This document shows positions 11,657 to 18,972 of a stretch of 64,000 nt of DNA, piece by piece. Origin of the DNA: Mycobacterium mantenii (lineage in GTDB: Bacteria; Actinomycetota; Actinomycetes; Mycobacteriales; Mycobacteriaceae); assembly GCF_010731775.1 (NCBI RefSeq), contig NZ_AP022590.1, positions 3,286,001 through 3,350,000 of the forward strand, read 5' to 3'. The position numbers and the translations under genes are program-made. Under the pieces are notes generated by a model, which had not been told where the DNA came from, did not search any database, and saw only the letters and a program-made list of their open reading frames with translations. Numbering within the stretch: position 1 is the first letter of the stretch; each line of letters starts with the position of its first letter.

Positions 11657-12517
11657 ATGGGGAGTACCAGCAGCACGGGGACGCGGCCACCAATCCACCT
11701 CGGTTCCGGGGAGCCGGTCTTGTTGCTGCACCCGTTCCTGCTGTCCCAGGCGGTCTGGGAGGACGTCGCCCAGCGGTTGGCCGACACCGGCCGATACGAG
11801 GTTTTCGCCCCGACGATGGCCGGCCACAACGGCGGCGCCCCCGCGGGGACCTGGTTCTTGTCCTCGGCGGTGCTGGCCGACGACGTCGAGCGCCAACTCG
11901 ACGAACTGGGCTGGGACACCGCGCACATCGTGGGCAACTCGCTGGGCGGCTGGGTCGCGTTCGAACTCGAGCGGCGCGGACGGGCGCGCAGCGTCATGGG
12001 CATCGCCCCGGCCGGCGGATGGACGCGCTGGAGCCCGGCCAAGTTCGAGGTGATCGCCAAGTTCATTCTGGGCATCCCGCTGCTGGTGCTGGCCGCGCTG
12101 TTCGGCCCGAGGGTGATGCGCCTGCCGTTCAGCCGCCAGCTGGCCACCTACGCGATCAGCGCCACGCCCGACGGGGTCAGCGACGCCCAACTGCTCGGCT
12201 GCATCGACGACGTCGCGCACTGCCCGGCCTATTTCCAGTTGCTGGTCAAGTCGCTGCTAATGCACGGGCTGCGGGAGCTGGCCGAGAACGCCGTCCCGGC
12301 GCACCTGGTGATCTGCGAAAAAGACCGAATCGTGCCCGCCCCCAGGTTCAGCAGGCATTTCACCACTCACTTGCCCGACGACCACCAAGTCACCGAGCTC
12401 GATGGCGTGGGGCACATCCCGATGTTCGAGGCGCCCGAGCGCGTCACCGAACTGATCATCGACTTCCTCGAGGAGTGCAGCCAAGCGAACCGGGGCGCCA
12501 ACCCCTCGGCTAGTTAG
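11657..12517 (+). CDS. Alpha/beta-fold hydrolase
   Basis: A 286-residue cytoplasmic hydrolase. The nucleophile elbow is GNSLGGW (Ser near residue 97), the acid is the Asp in [10 protein letters not shown], and the His is in [14 protein letters not shown], so the triad is complete and in order. A cap region with hydrophobic helices ([19 protein letters not shown]) sits between. ATG at 11657 follows a Gly/Ser/Thr-rich head that may be disordered. The 3' end overlaps the convergent icd1 by 8 bases. In M. tuberculosis this position is annotated, as I recall, as two smaller genes (Rv3337 and Rv3338), so the intact gene here suggests decay there. Substrate unknown. Confidence 0.88.
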
Positions 12518-13739
12518 CCAGCTTCTTTTCCAGGTTCTCGGCGATCGAGTTTAGGAATTGCTCGCTCTGCTGCCACTTCTGGTCGGGGCCGATCAGCAGG
12601 GCCAGGTCCTTGGTCATTTTCCCGCTCTCGACGGTGGAGACCACCACGTTCTCCAGGGTCTGCGCGAACTCGATCACCTCGGGGGTGTTGTCCAGCTTGC
12701 CGCGGTGCGCCAGTCCCCGCGTCCAGGCGAAGATGGACGCGATCGGGTTGGTCGAGGTCGGCTTGCCGGCCTGATACTGGCGGAAGTGGCGGGTGACGGT
12801 GCCGTGCGCGGCCTCGGCCTCGACCGTCTTGCCGTCGGCGGTCATCAGCACCGACGTCATCAGCCCCAGTGAGCCGTAGCCCTGCGCGACGAGGTCCGAC
12901 TGGACGTCGCCGTCGTAGTTCTTGCAGGCCCAAACGTAGCCGCCCTCCCACTTCAGGCAGGCCGCGACCATGTCGTCGATCAACCGGTGCTCGTAGGTCA
13001 GTCCCTCGGCCTCGAACTTGTCCTTGAACTCCTCGTCGTAGACGCGCTGGAACTCGTCTTTGAACATGCCGTCGTAGGCCTTGAGGATGGTGTTCTTGGT
13101 GGACAGGTACACCGGCCATTTGGCGTCCAGCCCGTACTTCAGCGAGGCGCGCGCGAAGTCCCGGATGGAGTCCTTGAAGTTGTACATGCCCATCACCACG
13201 CCGCCGTCGGGGGGAATGGACACCACCTTGTGCACTATCGGCTCGCTGCCGTCGGCGGGGGTGAAAGTGATTGCGACGGTTCCGGGTTTGTCGACCTTGA
13301 AGTTCGTCGCCCGGTACTGGTCGCCGAAGGCGTGACGGCCGATGACGATCGGCTTGGTCCAGCCCGGCACCAGGCGCGGCACGTTCGAGATCACGATCGG
13401 CTCGCGGAAGATGGTGCCGCCCAAGATGTTTCGGATCGTGCCGTTGGGCGACAGCCACATCTTCTTCAGGTTGAACTCGGAAACCCGGGCCTCGTCGGGG
13501 GTGATGGTCGCGCATTTGACGCCCACGCCGTGCTTCTTGATGGCGTACGCGGCGTCGATGGTCACCTGGTCGTTGGTGCGGTCGCGGTTCTCGATGCCCA
13601 GGTCGTAGTAGTCCAGGTTGATGTCGAGGTGCGGCAGGATCAGCAGGTCTTTGATGAATTTCCAGATGACGCGGGTCATCTCGTCACCATCGAGCTCGAC
13701 CACGCGGCCTTTGACCTTGATCTTGGCTTCGCCTGCCAT
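12510..13739 (-). CDS. icd1: NADP-dependent isocitrate dehydrogenase, homodimeric (eukaryote-like) type
   Basis: A 409-residue enzyme that converts isocitrate to 2-oxoglutarate in the TCA cycle and makes NADPH. Family landmarks are [13 protein letters not shown] at the N-terminus, the substrate-binding [18 protein letters not shown], the Tyr and Lys of the active site in [44 protein letters not shown], and [20 protein letters not shown] at the NADP site. This is the dimeric type related to the mitochondrial enzyme, unlike the monomeric type encoded next door. It starts 27 bases downstream of the end of icd2 on the same strand, so a bicistronic message is likely. Confidence 0.97.
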
Positions 13740-13766
13740 GTCGAGTCCGGCTTCCTGCTTGCGGCC

Positions 13767-16001
13767 CTAGCCTGTCGAAGCCGCCAGCGCCTCGTTGAAT
13801 GTCTTGCTCGGCCGCATGATCGCCGTCGTCTTCTCGGTGTCCGGCTGGTAGTAGCCGCCGATGTCGACCGCCTCGCCCTGCGCCTCGGCCAGTTCGGACA
13901 CGACGCTGTCCTCGTTTTCACCCAACGACTCGGCCAGCGCGGCGAAGTGCTTGCGCAGCTCCTCGTCGTCGGATTGCGCGAGTTCCTGCGCCCAGTACAG
14001 CGCCAGGTAGAACTGGCTGCCGCGGTTGTCGAGCTCACCTGTCTTGCGCGATGGGCTCTTGTTGTTCTCCAGCAGCTTGCCGATCGCGGCGTCCAGCGTC
14101 TTGCCCAGCACCTTGGCGCGCTCGTTGTCGGTCTTGATGCCGATGTCTTCGAAACACGCTCCCAGAGCCAGGAATTCACCCAAGGAATCCCAGCGCAGGT
14201 GGTTCTCCTCGACCAGCTGGTGCACGTGCTTGGGCGCCGAACCACCCGCCCCGGTCTCATACATTCCGCCGCCGGCCATCAACGGCACGATGGACAGCAT
14301 CTTGGCGCTGGTGCCCAGTTCCAGGATCGGGAACAGGTCGGTGAGGTAGTCGCGCAGGATGTTTCCTGTCGCGGCGATGGTGTCCTGTCCGCGCATCGCG
14401 CGCTCCAGCGTGTACCTCATGGCCCACACCTGCGGCATGATCTGGATCTCCAGGCCCTCGGTGTCGTAGTCCTTCAGGTACTTCTTGACCTTCTTGCGCA
14501 GCTCGACCTCGTGCGGCCGTTCGGTGTCCAACCAGAACACCACCGTCATGCCCGAATTGCGCGCCCGGGTGACGGCCAGCTTGACCCAGTCGCGGATCGC
14601 CGCGTCAGTGACGATGGGCATCCGCCAGATGTCGCCGGATTCCACGTTCTGGGTCAGCAGGACTTCCCCGGAGTCCAGGTCGACGATGTTGGCGACGCCG
14701 TCCTCGGGGATCTCGAACGTCTTGTCGTGCGAGCCGTACTCTTCGGCCTGCTGCGCCATCAGCCCGACGTTGGGAACCGTGCCCATCGTCCGCGGATCGA
14801 ACTGCCCGTGGGTCTTACAGAAGTTGATGATCTCTTGGTAGATGCGGGAGAACGTCGACTCCGGGTTGACGGCCTTGGTGTCCTTCTGCCGTCCGTCGGC
14901 GCCCCACATCTTGCCGCCGGCGCGGATCATCGCCGGCATCGACGCGTCCACGATCACGTCGCTGGGCGAATGAAAGTTGGTGATGCCCTTGGCCGAATCG
15001 ACCATGGCCAGTTCGGGGCGGTGTTCGTGGCAGGCGTGCAGGTCGCGGATGATCTCCTCGTGCAGCGACGCGGGCAGCGACTCGATCTTGTTGTAGAGGT
15101 CGACCAATCCGTTGTTGACGTCCACACCCAATTCGTCGAAGAGCGCCCCGTGCTTGGCGAAGGCGTCCTTGTAGAAGACCCTGACGGCGTGGCCGAAGAC
15201 GATGGGGTGCGAGACCTTCATCATGGTCGCCTTGACGTGCAGCGAGAACATCACGCCGGTCTCATAGGCGTCCTGCATCTGCTCCTCGTAAAACTCCACG
15301 AGGGCCTTTTTGCTCATGAACATGGAGTCGATGACGTCGCCCTCGCGCAACTCGACCTTGGGCTTGAGCTCGAGGGTCTGCCCGCTCTCGGTCTCCAGCA
15401 CCATCTTCACGTTGCGCGCGCGGTCCAGCGTCATCGACTTCTCGCCGTGGTAGAAGTCGCCTTGCTTCATAGTCGCGACGTGCGTGCGCGAGGCCGGCGA
15501 CCAGTCGCCCATGCTGTGCGGGTGCTTGCGGGCGTACTCCTTGACGGCCTTGGGCGCGCGCCGGTCCGAGTTGCCTTGGCGCAGTACCGGGTTGACCGCG
15601 CTGCCAAGGCATTTGGCGTAGCGCGCACGGATTTCCTTGTCCTCGTCCGTCTTCGGATTGTGCGGAAAGTCCGGGATCTTGAATCCCTTGCCCTGCAGCT
15701 CCTTGATGGCGGCGATCAGCTGGGGAACCGAGGCGCTGATGTTCGGCAGCTTGATGATGTTGGTATCGGGGAGCTCCGTCAGCCGGCCCAGTTCACCCAG
15801 GTTGTCCGGCACCCGCTGTTCTTCGGTCAGGTGTTCGGGGAACTCGGCCAGGATCCGGGCCGCGACGGAGATGTCGCTGGTCTTGATCTCGATGCCTGCC
15901 GGCTCGGCGAAGGCGCGCACGATCGGCAGGAACGCGTAAGTCGCCAGCAGCGGCGCTTCATCGGTCAGTGTGTAGATGACGGTCGGTTGTTCGGCGCTCA
16001 C
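13767..16001 (-). CDS. icd2: NADP-dependent isocitrate dehydrogenase, monomeric type
   Basis: A 744-residue monomeric IDH, a different family from the neighbour but with the same reaction. The N-terminus ([20 protein letters not shown]) and segments such as [49 protein letters not shown] and [18 protein letters not shown] are characteristic. Length is the family's usual 735-745. ATG is at 16001. In H37Rv icd2 is, to my recollection, Rv0066c, far from icd1; here the two isozyme genes are adjacent and codirectional. Its upstream region is shared with the divergent methionine operon leader. Which isozyme carries most flux cannot be read from the sequence. Confidence 0.97.
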
Positions 16002-16113
16002 GGTCCCTCTCCCGGCGTCAATGATGGGTTCGAATTTTGGGGGCTCAGCGTTCTGACTGCCACGTTATCAAGGGTGTTTGGACAGGTGTCGACCTGCACG
16101 TGTACCGCGAGGG

Positions 16114-16142
16114 TTGGCACCGGGTCGGCACAGTAAGATAGT
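16114..16142 (+). promoter_or_regulatory. Putative promoter of the metY leader
   Basis: TTGGCA at 16114-16119 is a possible -35. TAAGAT (16134-16139, 14 bp spacing) or GATAGT (16137-16142, 17 bp spacing) could be the -10. A start some 6-10 bases downstream would place the 5' end just at the SAM-IV aptamer. Prediction by position and sequence only. Confidence 0.4.
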
Positions 16143-16151
16143 CTTTGTATT

Positions 16152-16274
16152 GGTCATGAGCGCCAGCATCAAGCCCCGGCTTGCTGGCCGGCAACCCTCC
16201 AACCGCGGTGGGGTGCCCCGGGTGATGACCAGGTTGAGTAGCCACACAAACCGGCTATCCGGCAAGCGCGGGTC
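16152..16274 (+). ncRNA. SAM-IV riboswitch upstream of metY
   Basis: The sequence from GGTCATGAGCGCCAGC through CAAGCCCCGGCTTGCTGG, CCGGCAACCCTCCAACC, GCGGTGGGGTGCCCCGG and GTGATGACC to AAGCGCGGGTC matches, as I recall it, the actinobacterial SAM-IV aptamer almost base for base. That includes the P1 closing pair GGTCAT/ATGACC, the core and the 3' pseudoknot arm. It binds S-adenosylmethionine and normally lowers expression of methionine-synthesis genes. The 3' end (GGGTCC, 16270-16275) can alternatively pair with GGGCCC at 16284-16289, giving a plausible expression-platform hairpin that competes with the aptamer. It sits about 160 bases before the metY start. Confidence 0.93.
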
Positions 16275-16310
16275 CGCCATGACGGGCCCCTGAGTAGACA
16301 GGGAAACGTG

Positions 16311-16358
16311 ATGTGCATTCGCTCGGCCCATCCGCGCCTCATCGTGTGTCGCTGCTAA
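16311..16358 (+). CDS. Putative Cys-containing leader peptide upstream of metY
   Basis: A 15-codon frame, MCIRSAHPRLIVCRC, ends in TAA and lies between the SAM-IV aptamer and metY. It has a good ribosome-binding sequence (AGGGAAA, 16300-16306) just upstream of the ATG; the GTG three bases earlier is in frame. Cys occupies positions 2, 13 and 15, with CRC directly before the stop. Cysteine-rich upstream ORFs are known in mycobacteria to attenuate sulfur-assimilation genes when Cys-tRNA is scarce. That this one works so is inference from composition, position and the hairpin 9 bases after its stop. The host enzyme uses a sulfur donor, so cysteine/sulfide sensing would be logical. Confidence 0.55.
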   Translation: MCIRSAHPRLIVCRC

Positions 16359-16367
16359 TCCGCGCCC

Positions 16368-16396
16368 CCGGTTGACGCCCCCTTTCGGCGTCCCGG
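16368..16396 (+). terminator. Strong hairpin between leader ORF and metY (possible attenuator)
   Basis: CCGG-TT-GACGCC, a 7-nt loop, then GGCGTC-CCGG form a stem of ten pairs with a small bulge. No U-tract follows, so it may be a non-canonical mycobacterial terminator or a translational attenuator close to the metY start at 16436. Confidence 0.5.
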
Positions 16397-16435
16397 CCAT
16401 CCGTTAGCAGACCCCTACCAGCAGAAAGCAACCCC

Positions 16436-17818
16436 GTGACCTCCGACAACGCCGATCACGAAGCCGCCCACGACACCGATCCGACAGCAAACTGGACATT
16501 CGAGACCAAGCAGGTGCACGCCGGTCAGCGGCCGGACCCGGCCACCAACGCCCGCGCCCTGCCGATCTACCAGACCACGTCGTACACCTTCGACGACACC
16601 ACGCACGCCGCCGCCCTGTTCGGGCTGGAAGTGCCGGGCAACATCTACACCCGGATCGGCAACCCGACCACCGATGTCGTCGAGCAGCGCGTCGCCGCAC
16701 TCGAGGGCGGGGTGGCGGCGCTGTTCCTGAGCTCCGGACAGGCCGCTGAGACTTTCGCCATATTGAACCTGGCTTGTGCCGGAGATCACATCGTCTCGAG
16801 CCCGCGGCTCTACGGCGGGACGTACAACCTGTTCCACTATTCGCTGGCCAAGCTCGGCATCGAGGTCACCTTCGTGGCGGATCCCGACGACCTGGATTCG
16901 TGGCAGGCGGCGGTGCGGCCGAACACCAAAGCCTTCTTCGGCGAGACGATCTCCAACCCGCAGATCGACATCCTGGACATCCCGGGAGTCGCCGGGGTGG
17001 CGCATGCCAACGGCATACCGCTGATCGTCGACAACACCATCGCGACGCCGTATCTGATCCAGCCGTTCAAACACGGCGCGGACATCGTCGTGCACTCGGC
17101 CACCAAATACCTCGGCGGGCACGGCTCGGCGATCGCCGGGGTCATCGTCGACGGCGGCACCTTCGACTGGACGCAGGGTCGCTTCCCGGGATTCACCACA
17201 CCCGACCCGAGCTACCACGGCGTGGTGTTCGCCGAACTCGGTCCGCCGGCCTACGCGCTCAAGGCGCGCGTGCAGCTGCTGCGCGATCTCGGGTCGGCCG
17301 CGTCGCCGTTCAACGCGTTTTTGGTCGCCCAGGGCATCGAGACGCTGAGCCTGCGCATGGAGCGCCATGTCACCAACGCGCGACGCGTGGCCGAGTACCT
17401 GGCCGACCATGATGGCGTGTTGTCGGTCAACTACGCAGGCCTGCCCGGCTCGCCCTGGCATGAGCGCGCAAAGAAGCTGGCGCCCAAGGGAACCGGCGCG
17501 GTGTTGGCGTTCGAGCTGGCCGGCGGCGTCGAGGCCGGCAAGGCGTTCGTGAACGCGTTGAAGCTGCACAGCCACGTCGCCAACATCGGCGATGTGCGCT
17601 CCCTGGTGATCCACCCGGCGTCCACGACGCACGCGCAGCTGTCCGCGCAGGAGCAACTGAGCACCGGGGTCAGCCCCGGGCTGGTGCGCCTGGCCGTCGG
17701 CATCGAGGGCATCGACGACATCCTGGCCGACCTGGAGCTCGGATTCGCCGCGGCAAGCAAATTCGGCGCGACCGCGGGCGCATCCGGCACCGATCCGCAA
17801 GCCGTGGCGGCGTTCTAA
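16436..17818 (+). CDS. metY: O-acetylhomoserine sulfhydrylase (metY family)
   Basis: A 460-residue PLP enzyme of the Cys/Met metabolism family. It makes homocysteine from O-acetylhomoserine and sulfide. Landmarks are [20 protein letters not shown], the cofactor-stacking [27 protein letters not shown], and the PLP Lys at residue 224 in [11 protein letters not shown]. The length and the inserted segments mark the MetY (sulfhydrylase) rather than the shorter MetB/MetC branch, although the H37Rv gene at this place is named metC. The GTG start at 16436 has a purine-rich AGAAAG upstream. It is led by the SAM-IV riboswitch and followed 11 bases later by metX, its substrate supplier. Confidence 0.95.
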
Positions 17819-17829
17819 GGAGCCCGGCC

Positions 17830-18972
17830 ATGACGATCTCCGACGTCCCGACCCAAACACTGCCCGACGAAGGCGAAATCGGCTTCGTCCCCATCGGTTC
17901 GCTGACCACCGAAAGCGGCGCGGTCATCGACGACGCGCACATCGCCATCCAGCGCTGGGGCGAGTTATCGCCGACGCGGGACAACGTGGTGGTGGTGCTG
18001 CACGCGCTTACCGGCGACTCGCACGTCACCGGGTCCGCCGGACCCGGACACCCCACCGCCGGCTGGTGGGACGAAATGGTCGGGCCGGATGCGCCGATCG
18101 ACACTAACCGCTGGTGCGCGCTGGCCACCAATGTGCTGGGCGGTTGCCGCGGCTCCACCGGCCCCAGCTCGCGGACCCGGGACGGAAAGCCTTGGGGCTC
18201 AAGGTTCCCCCGGATCTCGATCCGCGATCAGGTGGAGGCCGACATCGCCGCGCTGACCGCCCTGGGGATCGAGCGGGTCGCCGCCGTGGTCGGTGGATCC
18301 ATGGGTGGCGCAAGAGCTTTGGAGTGGATCGTCGGCCACCCGAACCGGGTCCGTGCCGGGCTGCTGCTGGCGGTGGGCGCGCGCGCCACCGCCGATCAGA
18401 TCGGCACCCAGTCCACGCAGATCGCGGCGATCAAGGCCGACCCGAACTGGCAGGGCGGCGACTACCACGACACCGGGCTCGCGCCGGATACCGGGCTGAC
18501 CATCGCCCGCCGCTTCGCGCATCTGACCTATCGCGGTGAAGTCGAGCTCGACACCCGGTTCGGCAACGACGGGCAGAACGACGAGGATCCGAACAACGGC
18601 GGCCGCTACGCGGTGCAAAGCTATCTCGAATACCAGGGCGACAAGCTGCTCGAGCGCTTCGACGCGGGCAGCTACGTGGTGTTGACCGAGGCGCTGAACA
18701 GTCACGATGTCGGCCGGGGTCGCGGTGGGGTGCATAAAGCGTTGCGTCACTGCCCGGTTCCGGTCGTGGTCGGCGGCATCACCTCCGACCGGCTGTACCC
18801 GCTGCGCCTGCAGCAGGAGCTGGCCGAGCACCTGCCCGGCTGCGCCGACCTTCAGGTCGTGGACTCCGTCTGCGGGCACGACGGCTTCCTGGTGGAATCC
18901 GACGCGGTCGGCGAAATGATCCGTAAGACACTAGTGTTGGCCGACTCGGACAACAGGGAAGGCGCGTCGTAA
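17830..18972 (+). CDS. metX: Homoserine O-acetyltransferase
   Basis: A 380-residue alpha/beta-hydrolase-fold transferase that makes O-acetylhomoserine from homoserine and acetyl-CoA, the first committed step of methionine synthesis. The nucleophile elbow [12 protein letters not shown] puts Ser at residue 157. The Asp/His pair lies near the C-terminus in [26 protein letters not shown] and [14 protein letters not shown] form the oxyanion and substrate loops. H37Rv calls this gene metA, but the fold and motifs are MetX. A clear AAGGAGCCCGGCC ribosome site overlaps the end of metY. Regulation by the upstream riboswitch should extend to this gene. Confidence 0.96.

Follow-up and report, generated by a model that had tools for sequence, protein, structure and literature searches.

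A SAM-IV riboswitch and a cysteine-codon upstream reading frame before metY in Mycobacterium mantenii: a probable two-input leader in series

The stretch of DNA considered here (the window) comprises 64,000 nucleotides (nt) of the Mycobacterium mantenii contig NZ_AP022590.1 and carries on its forward strand the gene metY (16436..17818, GTG start), which encodes an O-acetylhomoserine sulfhydrylase and was assigned from the list of open reading frames (ORFs) and from relatives, with identities of up to 97% (97% in Mycobacterium colombiense, the closest named relative). The leader of this gene contains an S-adenosylmethionine (SAM) riboswitch aptamer of the SAM-IV family (Rfam RF00634) at 16152..16274 (+), as a preliminary description of the locus had proposed, and the cmscan match spans the full model (positions 1–116 of 116) with 113.6 bits against a gathering score of 38, placing it within the family by its covariance model. 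This is the sole Rfam element found at gathering thresholds in the window and the only SAM-IV match in the genome at E <= 0.001. Behind the aptamer follow two overlapping platform hairpins (H1 and H2), a short upstream ORF (uORF) with cysteine codons (16311..16358, +), and a C-rich, G-poor spacer that extends to the ribosome-binding region of metY (16359..16420, +). Comparison with related loci makes it fairly probable that these parts form a two-input leader arranged in series, with SAM-IV first, then the Cys uORF and finally metY. A SAM-IV riboswitch in the 5' untranslated region of a metY orthologue has already been annotated in M. avium (MAV_4315, annotated as O-acetylhomoserine sulfhydrylase; PMC3774663), and a SAM riboswitch has been predicted for metC of M. 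tuberculosis (PMC9232105).

The uORF (MCIRSAHPRLIVCRC, stop included) starts with ATG at 16311, or alternatively with the GTG directly upstream at 16308, and ends with TAA at 16356–16358. It holds three Cys codons, at positions 2, 13 and 15 of a peptide of 15 amino acids (aa), a content that by itself exceeds chance only modestly (p = 0.020 for the Cys count and p = 0.010 for Cys near the end in dinucleotide shuffles), and thus the case for this frame rests on its relatives. In the window and in loci L002 and L009 (loci and genomes are cited by L and G numbers), Cys 2, 13 and 15 are kept while 7 of the 12 other residues vary, and the frame is in this respect conserved as a reading frame. The peptides MCARFAHSLLIVCRC and MCSHPPHPRLIACRC belong to the uORFs that stand next to that of the window in the comparison. 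None of the four metY uORF peptides of at least 20 aa matches the NCBIfam leader-peptide profiles, the window peptide having 15 aa. Judged by its position behind the aptamer, the window uORF is, unlike the polycysteine leaderless short ORFs that Canestrari reportedly described in mycobacteria in 2020, not leaderless.

The comparative sample consisted of 171 sequences, namely 80 named metY loci, 90 SAM-IV loci and the window. SAM-IV is present in 204 of the 298 genomes of the order, and the 90 SAM-IV loci, a first set of 30 and 60 more selected from about 150 SAM-IV places, are not a random draw. Placement was scripted, SAM-IV being located by a core motif and metY by tblastn, and the aptamer motif was found in 145 of the 171 sequences, 91 with metY and 54 with another gene behind it. 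After removal of L105 and L118 from the metY set, where metY is not the adjacent gene, loci were classed as direct when metY starts at most 80 nt from the aptamer tail (28 loci) and as gap when the distance is longer (61 loci). The motif missed 26 of the 171 loci; three of these (L060, L074 and L079, all confirmed as SAM-IV by Rfam) were added by hand, giving 64 gap loci, and 23 stayed out, comprising nine SAM-IV loci (L093, L121, L123, L126, L132, L139, L147, L168 and L170) and metY loci without a recognised SAM-IV (L034 and 13 others that gave no match in an Rfam scan). The uORF starts were chosen by hand, so that the peptide list favours Cys, whereas class counts and shuffle tests were automatic; no uORF was assigned at L144, L162 and L165.

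Clusters of at least two Cys within four codons occur in 44 of the 64 gap loci, where dinucleotide shuffles predict 3.7 and the antisense strand has 6, and clusters of at least three Cys in 24 of 64, against 0.07 expected and none antisense. The short Cys frame that had at first simply been read in the sequence before metY is therefore upheld by its enrichment in relatives, and the gene is preceded, by comparison, by a short Cys-enriched ORF of the kind that defines Cys-codon leaders of sulfur genes. When a fixed interval of 140 nt was used, Cys clusters were found in 35 of 61 gap loci (2.9 expected), in none of the 28 direct metY loci (0.2 expected) and in 2 of 54 loci with SAM-IV before other genes (1.4 expected). 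Since the direct and other-gene loci stay at chance level, the signal is, on this comparison, specific to the combination of SAM-IV, metY and a gap. Moreover, the Cys codons of the uORFs are TGT in 113 of 147 cases, whereas the long ORFs of these stretches use TGT for 101 of 346, a contrast that is somewhat inflated because a filter for GC-rich third positions, applied to the comparison ORFs, raises their share of TGC. Taken over the relatives, these counts argue that the uORF is almost certainly under selection for Cys codons.

The peptides themselves vary between lineages, with MRSPHMCRCC, MCMCP and MRCCP elsewhere in mycobacteria, MCCCRR, MCCCCRR and MCCCLD in Rhodococcus, MCCCG in Nocardia and MSCCRR in Aldersonia. 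In the Rhodococcus-type genus of G160, which groups with Rhodococcus on the MetY tree, SAM-IV was found in 37 of 37 genomes. One match per genome was picked as metY-like in the genomes other than G160 (whose own locus is L115), and all 36 proved to lie upstream of metY; each of these 36 loci has at least one Cys in its uORF and 33 have at least two. An automatic rule (at least two Cys in the first seven codons) recognised 31 of the 36, with M-C-C-C in 23 of the 31, and reading by eye gave MFSHRLCCSRR for two of the remaining five and MCRSPR for three. Outside the order, L189 (MCCCRMQQVTGA; SAM-IV at 96.0 bits) and L190 (MCCCCRMTRR; 104.9 bits) are likewise followed by metY. A strict pattern (M-C-C close behind the aptamer) searched across the phylum, where few relatives were sampled, matched only 2 of 396 genomes, SAM-IV being present in one (the L182/L192 locus). 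A class-wide pattern matched 23 of 394, and SAM-IV was present at 4 of the 20 loci inspected (L182, L183, L189 and L190), two of the four lying within the order; five further matches had no locus. A strict pattern found only 6 of the 37 genomes of the Rhodococcus-type genus, while the family search gave SAM-IV in all 37. In L010, from M. lepraemurium, the single uORF Cys stands at the very end of the peptide, and the H1 and H2 sequences are intact.

The end of the aptamer match and the uORF start, which the platform hairpins abut, are 36 nt apart. H1 pairs GGGTCCG (16270–16276) with CGGGCCC (16283–16289), both on the forward strand, with the 5' arm reaching into the end of the aptamer match; it is the competing hairpin that the preliminary description had placed at the 3' end of the aptamer. 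Its general form across loci is GGGUCCG with CGG(G/A)CCC behind the aptamer tail, and all seven pairs form in 76 of 91 loci (26 of 28 direct, 50 of 63 gap), where mononucleotide shuffles would give 5.4 with the best offset used for loci and shuffles alike. Moreover, both arms vary and still pair, as in GGGUUCU/AGGACCC, GGGUCGG/CCGGCCC and GGUCCGC/GUGGACC. H2 (CCCTG 16288–16292 with CAGGG 16299–16303, +) was found by folding and has a putative function; it overlaps H1 at 16288–16289 and would cover the likely ribosome-binding site of the uORF. The 52-nt stretch that was folded has no unusual stability overall (z -0.93). In direct loci (e.g., L004, L015 and L029) H1/H2-like elements stand immediately before metY, whereas in gap loci they stand before the uORF, and the aptamer tail of the Nocardia loci L064, L074 and L080 leads, after at most about 10 nt, to an AGGAGG-like site and then to the uORF start. 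Because the platform precedes whichever frame comes first, the uORF in gap loci and metY in direct ones, the riboswitch most likely controls translation of the uORF. The arrangement of one leader with a SAM sensor and a Cys uORF, as originally suggested, is strongly upheld by comparison, with the amendment that the two sensors would work in series, since the platform of the riboswitch adjoins the start of the uORF.

The position of H2 bears on a simpler reading, in which the window uORF would be a chance frame and SAM-IV would act on metY directly. The window alone, at a p of about 0.02, and the direct arrangement of 28 related loci could be accommodated by it, but H2 ends 7 nt upstream of the uORF start and 132 nt upstream of metY, Cys 2, 13 and 15 are retained in the window, L002 and L009, and the enrichment among relatives is hard to reconcile with chance, which makes such a reading highly improbable. 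As for how the direct and gap states arose, a quick MetY tree of 92 rows needs at least 16 changes between them, a count that gives no direction. Most of these changes may be read as losses of the uORF, since gap loci with Cys make up the rows of Rhodococcus and Nocardia and also several of the early branches among the mycobacteria. There is a slight preponderance in favour of the view that, in many actinobacteria, the metY SAM-IV riboswitch ancestrally switches a Cys-sensing leader peptide, and that metY repeatedly shed the uORF, its own start codon coming to lie behind the riboswitch.

How the state of the uORF would be relayed to metY has to be sought in the sequence between them. The window spacer (16359..16420) has a C fraction of 0.48 and a G fraction of 0.23, at the 98.6th percentile of segments in its stretch, and the 46 spacers compared average 0.44 C and 0.22 G. 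C minus G amounts to 0.22 in the spacers versus -0.01 in 71 control 5' regions, and 41 of the 46 exceed the control 90th percentile (Mann-Whitney p 2e-18, a value that is indicative only, as the compared loci share descent and the gene starts in the controls were guessed mechanically). A C-rich, G-poor composition is associated with loading of the termination factor Rho, and it is present here where a Rho attenuator would have it, namely after the uORF. Owing to this composition and to the part of Rho that is documented at the Mbox leader and has been proposed for cys leaders, Rho is the favoured candidate for the relay, with a confidence that falls a little short of even.

The spacer also contains the ten-pair hairpin (4+6 pairs) of the preliminary description, which is indeed present at 16368–16396 (+), folds at -15.7 kcal/mol (z -1.89) and is equalled by 7 of 200 shuffles. 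By eye it recurs in five more mycobacterial loci (L002, L009, L020, L025 and L048) and is lacking from L003, L006, L010 and L022, compared beside them, all of these being a selection of loci. The hairpin shows no covariation beyond shuffles, since across the six loci, with 93% of positions paired, 194 of 500 shuffles were as good. It was rejected as an intrinsic terminator, having no T run behind it (CCATCCGTTAG follows), and as a general part of the leader, being known from near relatives only. A possible duplex enclosing the hairpin (16352..16410, +), in which the uORF end CTGCTAAT (16352–16359) would pair with GTTAGCAG (16403–16410), appears in the minimum free energy structure of 16311–16436 (z -1.91); it was not significant in the duplex test of the window (p 0.795). 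Across loci, duplexes between the Cys tract and downstream sequence were no better than shuffles (mean z -0.22, with 7 of 55 at p < 0.05; L018, L019, L024 and L106 omitted for an unresolved start, L017 and L091 for having no Cys). In L068, L086 and L102 the Cys tract seems by eye to pair convincingly with the region of the metY start, but in view of this group result such pairing was dropped as the general mechanism.

These folding tests bear on the rival idea of translational attenuation as in polycysteine leaders, according to which the unstalled fold would cover the metY ribosome-binding site and a stall on the Cys codons would open it. In the test the Cys tract was blocked by a ribosome footprint and the ease of opening the metY start region was computed, with spacers longer than 130 nt (L014, L107, L140, L146, L152 and L157) further omitted. 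Over the resulting 49 loci the gain was 0.67 kcal/mol for the true tract and 0.57 for a shuffled one (Wilcoxon p 0.80), only three loci reached p < 0.05, and the window gave -0.7 kcal/mol; the opening expected of leaders of the Canestrari type was thus absent overall and positive in a few lineages. Large gains were obtained for L086 (7.2 kcal/mol) and L075 (3.9 kcal/mol; p 0.00 for both) and for L038 (3.2; p 0.02), and, among Rhodococcus-type loci, for L267 (8.9; p 0.00) and L247 (5.7; p 0.04). The 16 non-redundant Rhodococcus-type loci average 2.6 against 1.9 in shuffles, with four at p <= 0.1, although just 8 of the 16 lie above their own shuffles. A stall may therefore open the ribosome-binding site in some lineages according to these computed folds, the window giving no sign of it, and as the general explanation attenuation is doubtful.

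The two-input leader in series would operate in three steps. Firstly, to judge from position and conservation, SAM-IV would control initiation of the Cys-codon uORF through the mutually exclusive H1 and H2. With SAM bound, the 3' tail of the aptamer would be held in a pseudoknot and H1 weakened, and the freed Cs would pair with the uORF ribosome-binding site; the weakening of H1 would follow from the 3' end of SAM-IV being one strand of the pseudoknot PK-2 (PMC6890682). Without SAM, H1 would form and the uORF would be translated. Secondly, a shortage of Cys-tRNA would slow ribosomes at the clustered, mostly TGT, Cys codons, and that the uORF senses Cys-tRNA in this way is very probable from its codon content. 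Thirdly, and least certainly, ribosome position would decide whether transcription proceeds through the C-rich spacer into metY, most likely by way of a Rho loading site masked by the ribosome. The outcome would be that metY is made only at low SAM, and most when cysteine is also short; that more metY is made when Cys is low can be regarded as probable.

The null results of the duplex and stall tests weigh against this scheme, as do several features of the loci. The evidence for Rho is compositional, and the loci are related, so that the counts are not independent. Moreover, 20 of the 64 gap loci fail the Cys-cluster rule, and among the 61 hand-assigned uORFs 13 have one Cys, near relatives L007, L008 and L010 included, and three have none (L017, L018 and L091), the M. 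gordonae/asiaticum group being among those with weak-Cys uORFs. The uORF overlaps the metY start in five loci (L017, L049, L062, L091 and L115), which suggests coupling there. Finally, uORF1 of the M. tuberculosis pe20 Mbox leader, another riboswitch leader with a Cys-containing uORF, has four Cys codons (TGC, TGC, TGT and TGT) that its authors mention, in the part available, only as rare codons (PMC12810186).

Both the Cys-free uORFs and the stop/start overlaps would be expected if the uORF were a ribosome-loading or coupling device under the riboswitch in which the amino acids are irrelevant, and such coupling has been shown for the uORF of a B12 riboswitch (PMC11260477). However, Cys clusters far above chance that are rare antisense and at chance level behind control SAM-IV, the bias to TGT, and the sister loci L050, L055 and L066, which hold a Cys run without overlap, leave this explanation decidedly unlikely. 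The five overlaps are also compatible with a leader of opposite sign, in which metY would be made at low SAM and sufficient cysteine because ribosomes must pass the Cys codons. Such a sign would suit the fact that MetY and cysteine synthesis compete for sulfide. The opposite sign is nevertheless unlikely, since MetY rises in sulfate-starved Rhodococcus (PMC8557817), though low SAM may explain this as well. In detail, a sulfate-free dibenzothiophene culture of Rhodococcus qingshengii IGTS8 showed MetY up by log2 2.9–3.1, a rise that the authors considered not unambiguously explainable (PMC8557817). Another R. qingshengii genome has SAM-IV, a uORF reading MCRTCR and metY at one locus (L202), and a second metY without a recognised SAM-IV (L052); because both copies are alike in Cys and Met (0 Cys and 1 Met each in the part counted), the published paralogue cannot be assigned to either. 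The rise speaks for the series leader and would be expected from low SAM as well as from low Cys.

Around the leader, two long genes on the minus strand lie upstream, at 12510–13739 and 13767–16001, which we take to be the isocitrate dehydrogenase genes icd1 and icd2; two different isocitrate dehydrogenase-like genes would thus adjoin each other at 12510–16001 (−), divergent from metY. A second ORF of 380 aa follows metY at 17830–18972 (+) in the ORF list and is presumably a homoserine acetyltransferase. An ORF of 110 codons runs antisense through the leader (16068–16400, −) and is probably a by-product of the GC-rich sequence. The MetY proteins of 37 gap loci contain on average 0.14 Cys and 1.0 Met in about 432 aa, and MetY is nearly free of both residues in the proteins of L002–L081 and in 16436–17818, as though made for synthesis when sulfur is short. 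The low Cys content was rejected as a sign of Cys control, as it does not discriminate, MetY being nearly Cys-free in every class (means of 0.14 in 37 gap, 0.37 in 19 direct and 0.00 in 3 loci without SAM-IV, among the readable named loci).

Further observations concern SAM-IV and leaders at other places. SAM-IV off metY (L085, L088, L194, L200 and others) often precedes a gene with YANxDYAASAP near the start of its product, possibly the protein that is annotated as a cysteine desulfurase downstream of SAM-IV in S. lividans (PMC8079986). At L155, SAM-IV is followed by a short ORF with CRRLHIDLMRAASSSACC and a weak match to the NCBIfam profile cis_reg_atten (13.6 bits against a cut-off of 27), and another type of leader may be present there. 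Several Rhodococcus-type genomes (G1015, G1020, G1045 and others) have a third, weaker SAM-IV match of about 71–81 bits. In M. manitobense one metY (L034) lacks a recognised SAM-IV and another (L196) comes directly behind SAM-IV, and paralogues can thus differ in their leaders. In S. lividans, metL, called a methionine leader (PMC8079986), ends with RCMCRRMCAF and, from this sequence, may be a Cys leader rather than a methionine leader.

Riboswitches and amino-acid leader peptides are mostly regarded as alternative devices, whereas in this leader a riboswitch for one metabolite appears to act on a leader peptide reading a second one, in a compact AND-type circuit at the branch point of methionine and cysteine synthesis. 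The sister loci without a uORF are natural controls for the value of the Cys input, the tandem may bear on the rise of MetY in sulfur-starved Rhodococcus, and Cys-codon leaders in actinobacteria would not be confined to leaderless transcripts. The literature search, whose coverage excluded supplements and some key leader-ORF papers, did not turn up a description of a Cys uORF placed between SAM-IV and metY, in agreement with the preliminary description, which knew of none.

Compared with known systems, the element shares the full-length aptamer of SAM-IV riboswitches (RF00634), and it differs in that the first frame behind its platform is a Cys uORF, a feature absent from the available parts of the published descriptions. 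With the polycysteine leaderless ORFs it would share a short frame, with its Cys codons in clusters, ahead of a gene for sulfur metabolism, as these are reportedly built; here, however, the ORF stands behind a riboswitch, is not leaderless, and failed the test for opening of the ribosome-binding site overall. Cys leaders are known in mycobacteria (PMC4633059, PMC9094748 and PMC1262725), attenuation by Rho has been proposed where cys/cbs operons of actinobacteria carry Cys leader peptides (PMC1262725), and upstream of cysS the uORFC-8-2 motif has Cys codons (PMC8632094). These likewise place Cys codons before a sulfur or Cys-tRNA gene, but the genes are others and, in the parts available, no riboswitch is described in front. 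In M. tuberculosis Mbox-uORF2 (PMC12810186) and B12-uPPE2 (PMC11260477), the main gene is preceded by a uORF under a riboswitch whose platform acts on translation, as is proposed here, and Rho takes part at the Mbox leader with its uORF (PMC12810186). Whereas those uORFs are not described as amino-acid sensors in the available parts of these articles, the conserved Cys cluster before metY would add a second input. What is new is thus the combination of SAM-IV, a conserved Cys uORF and metY, in which elements of known kinds would be joined in series.

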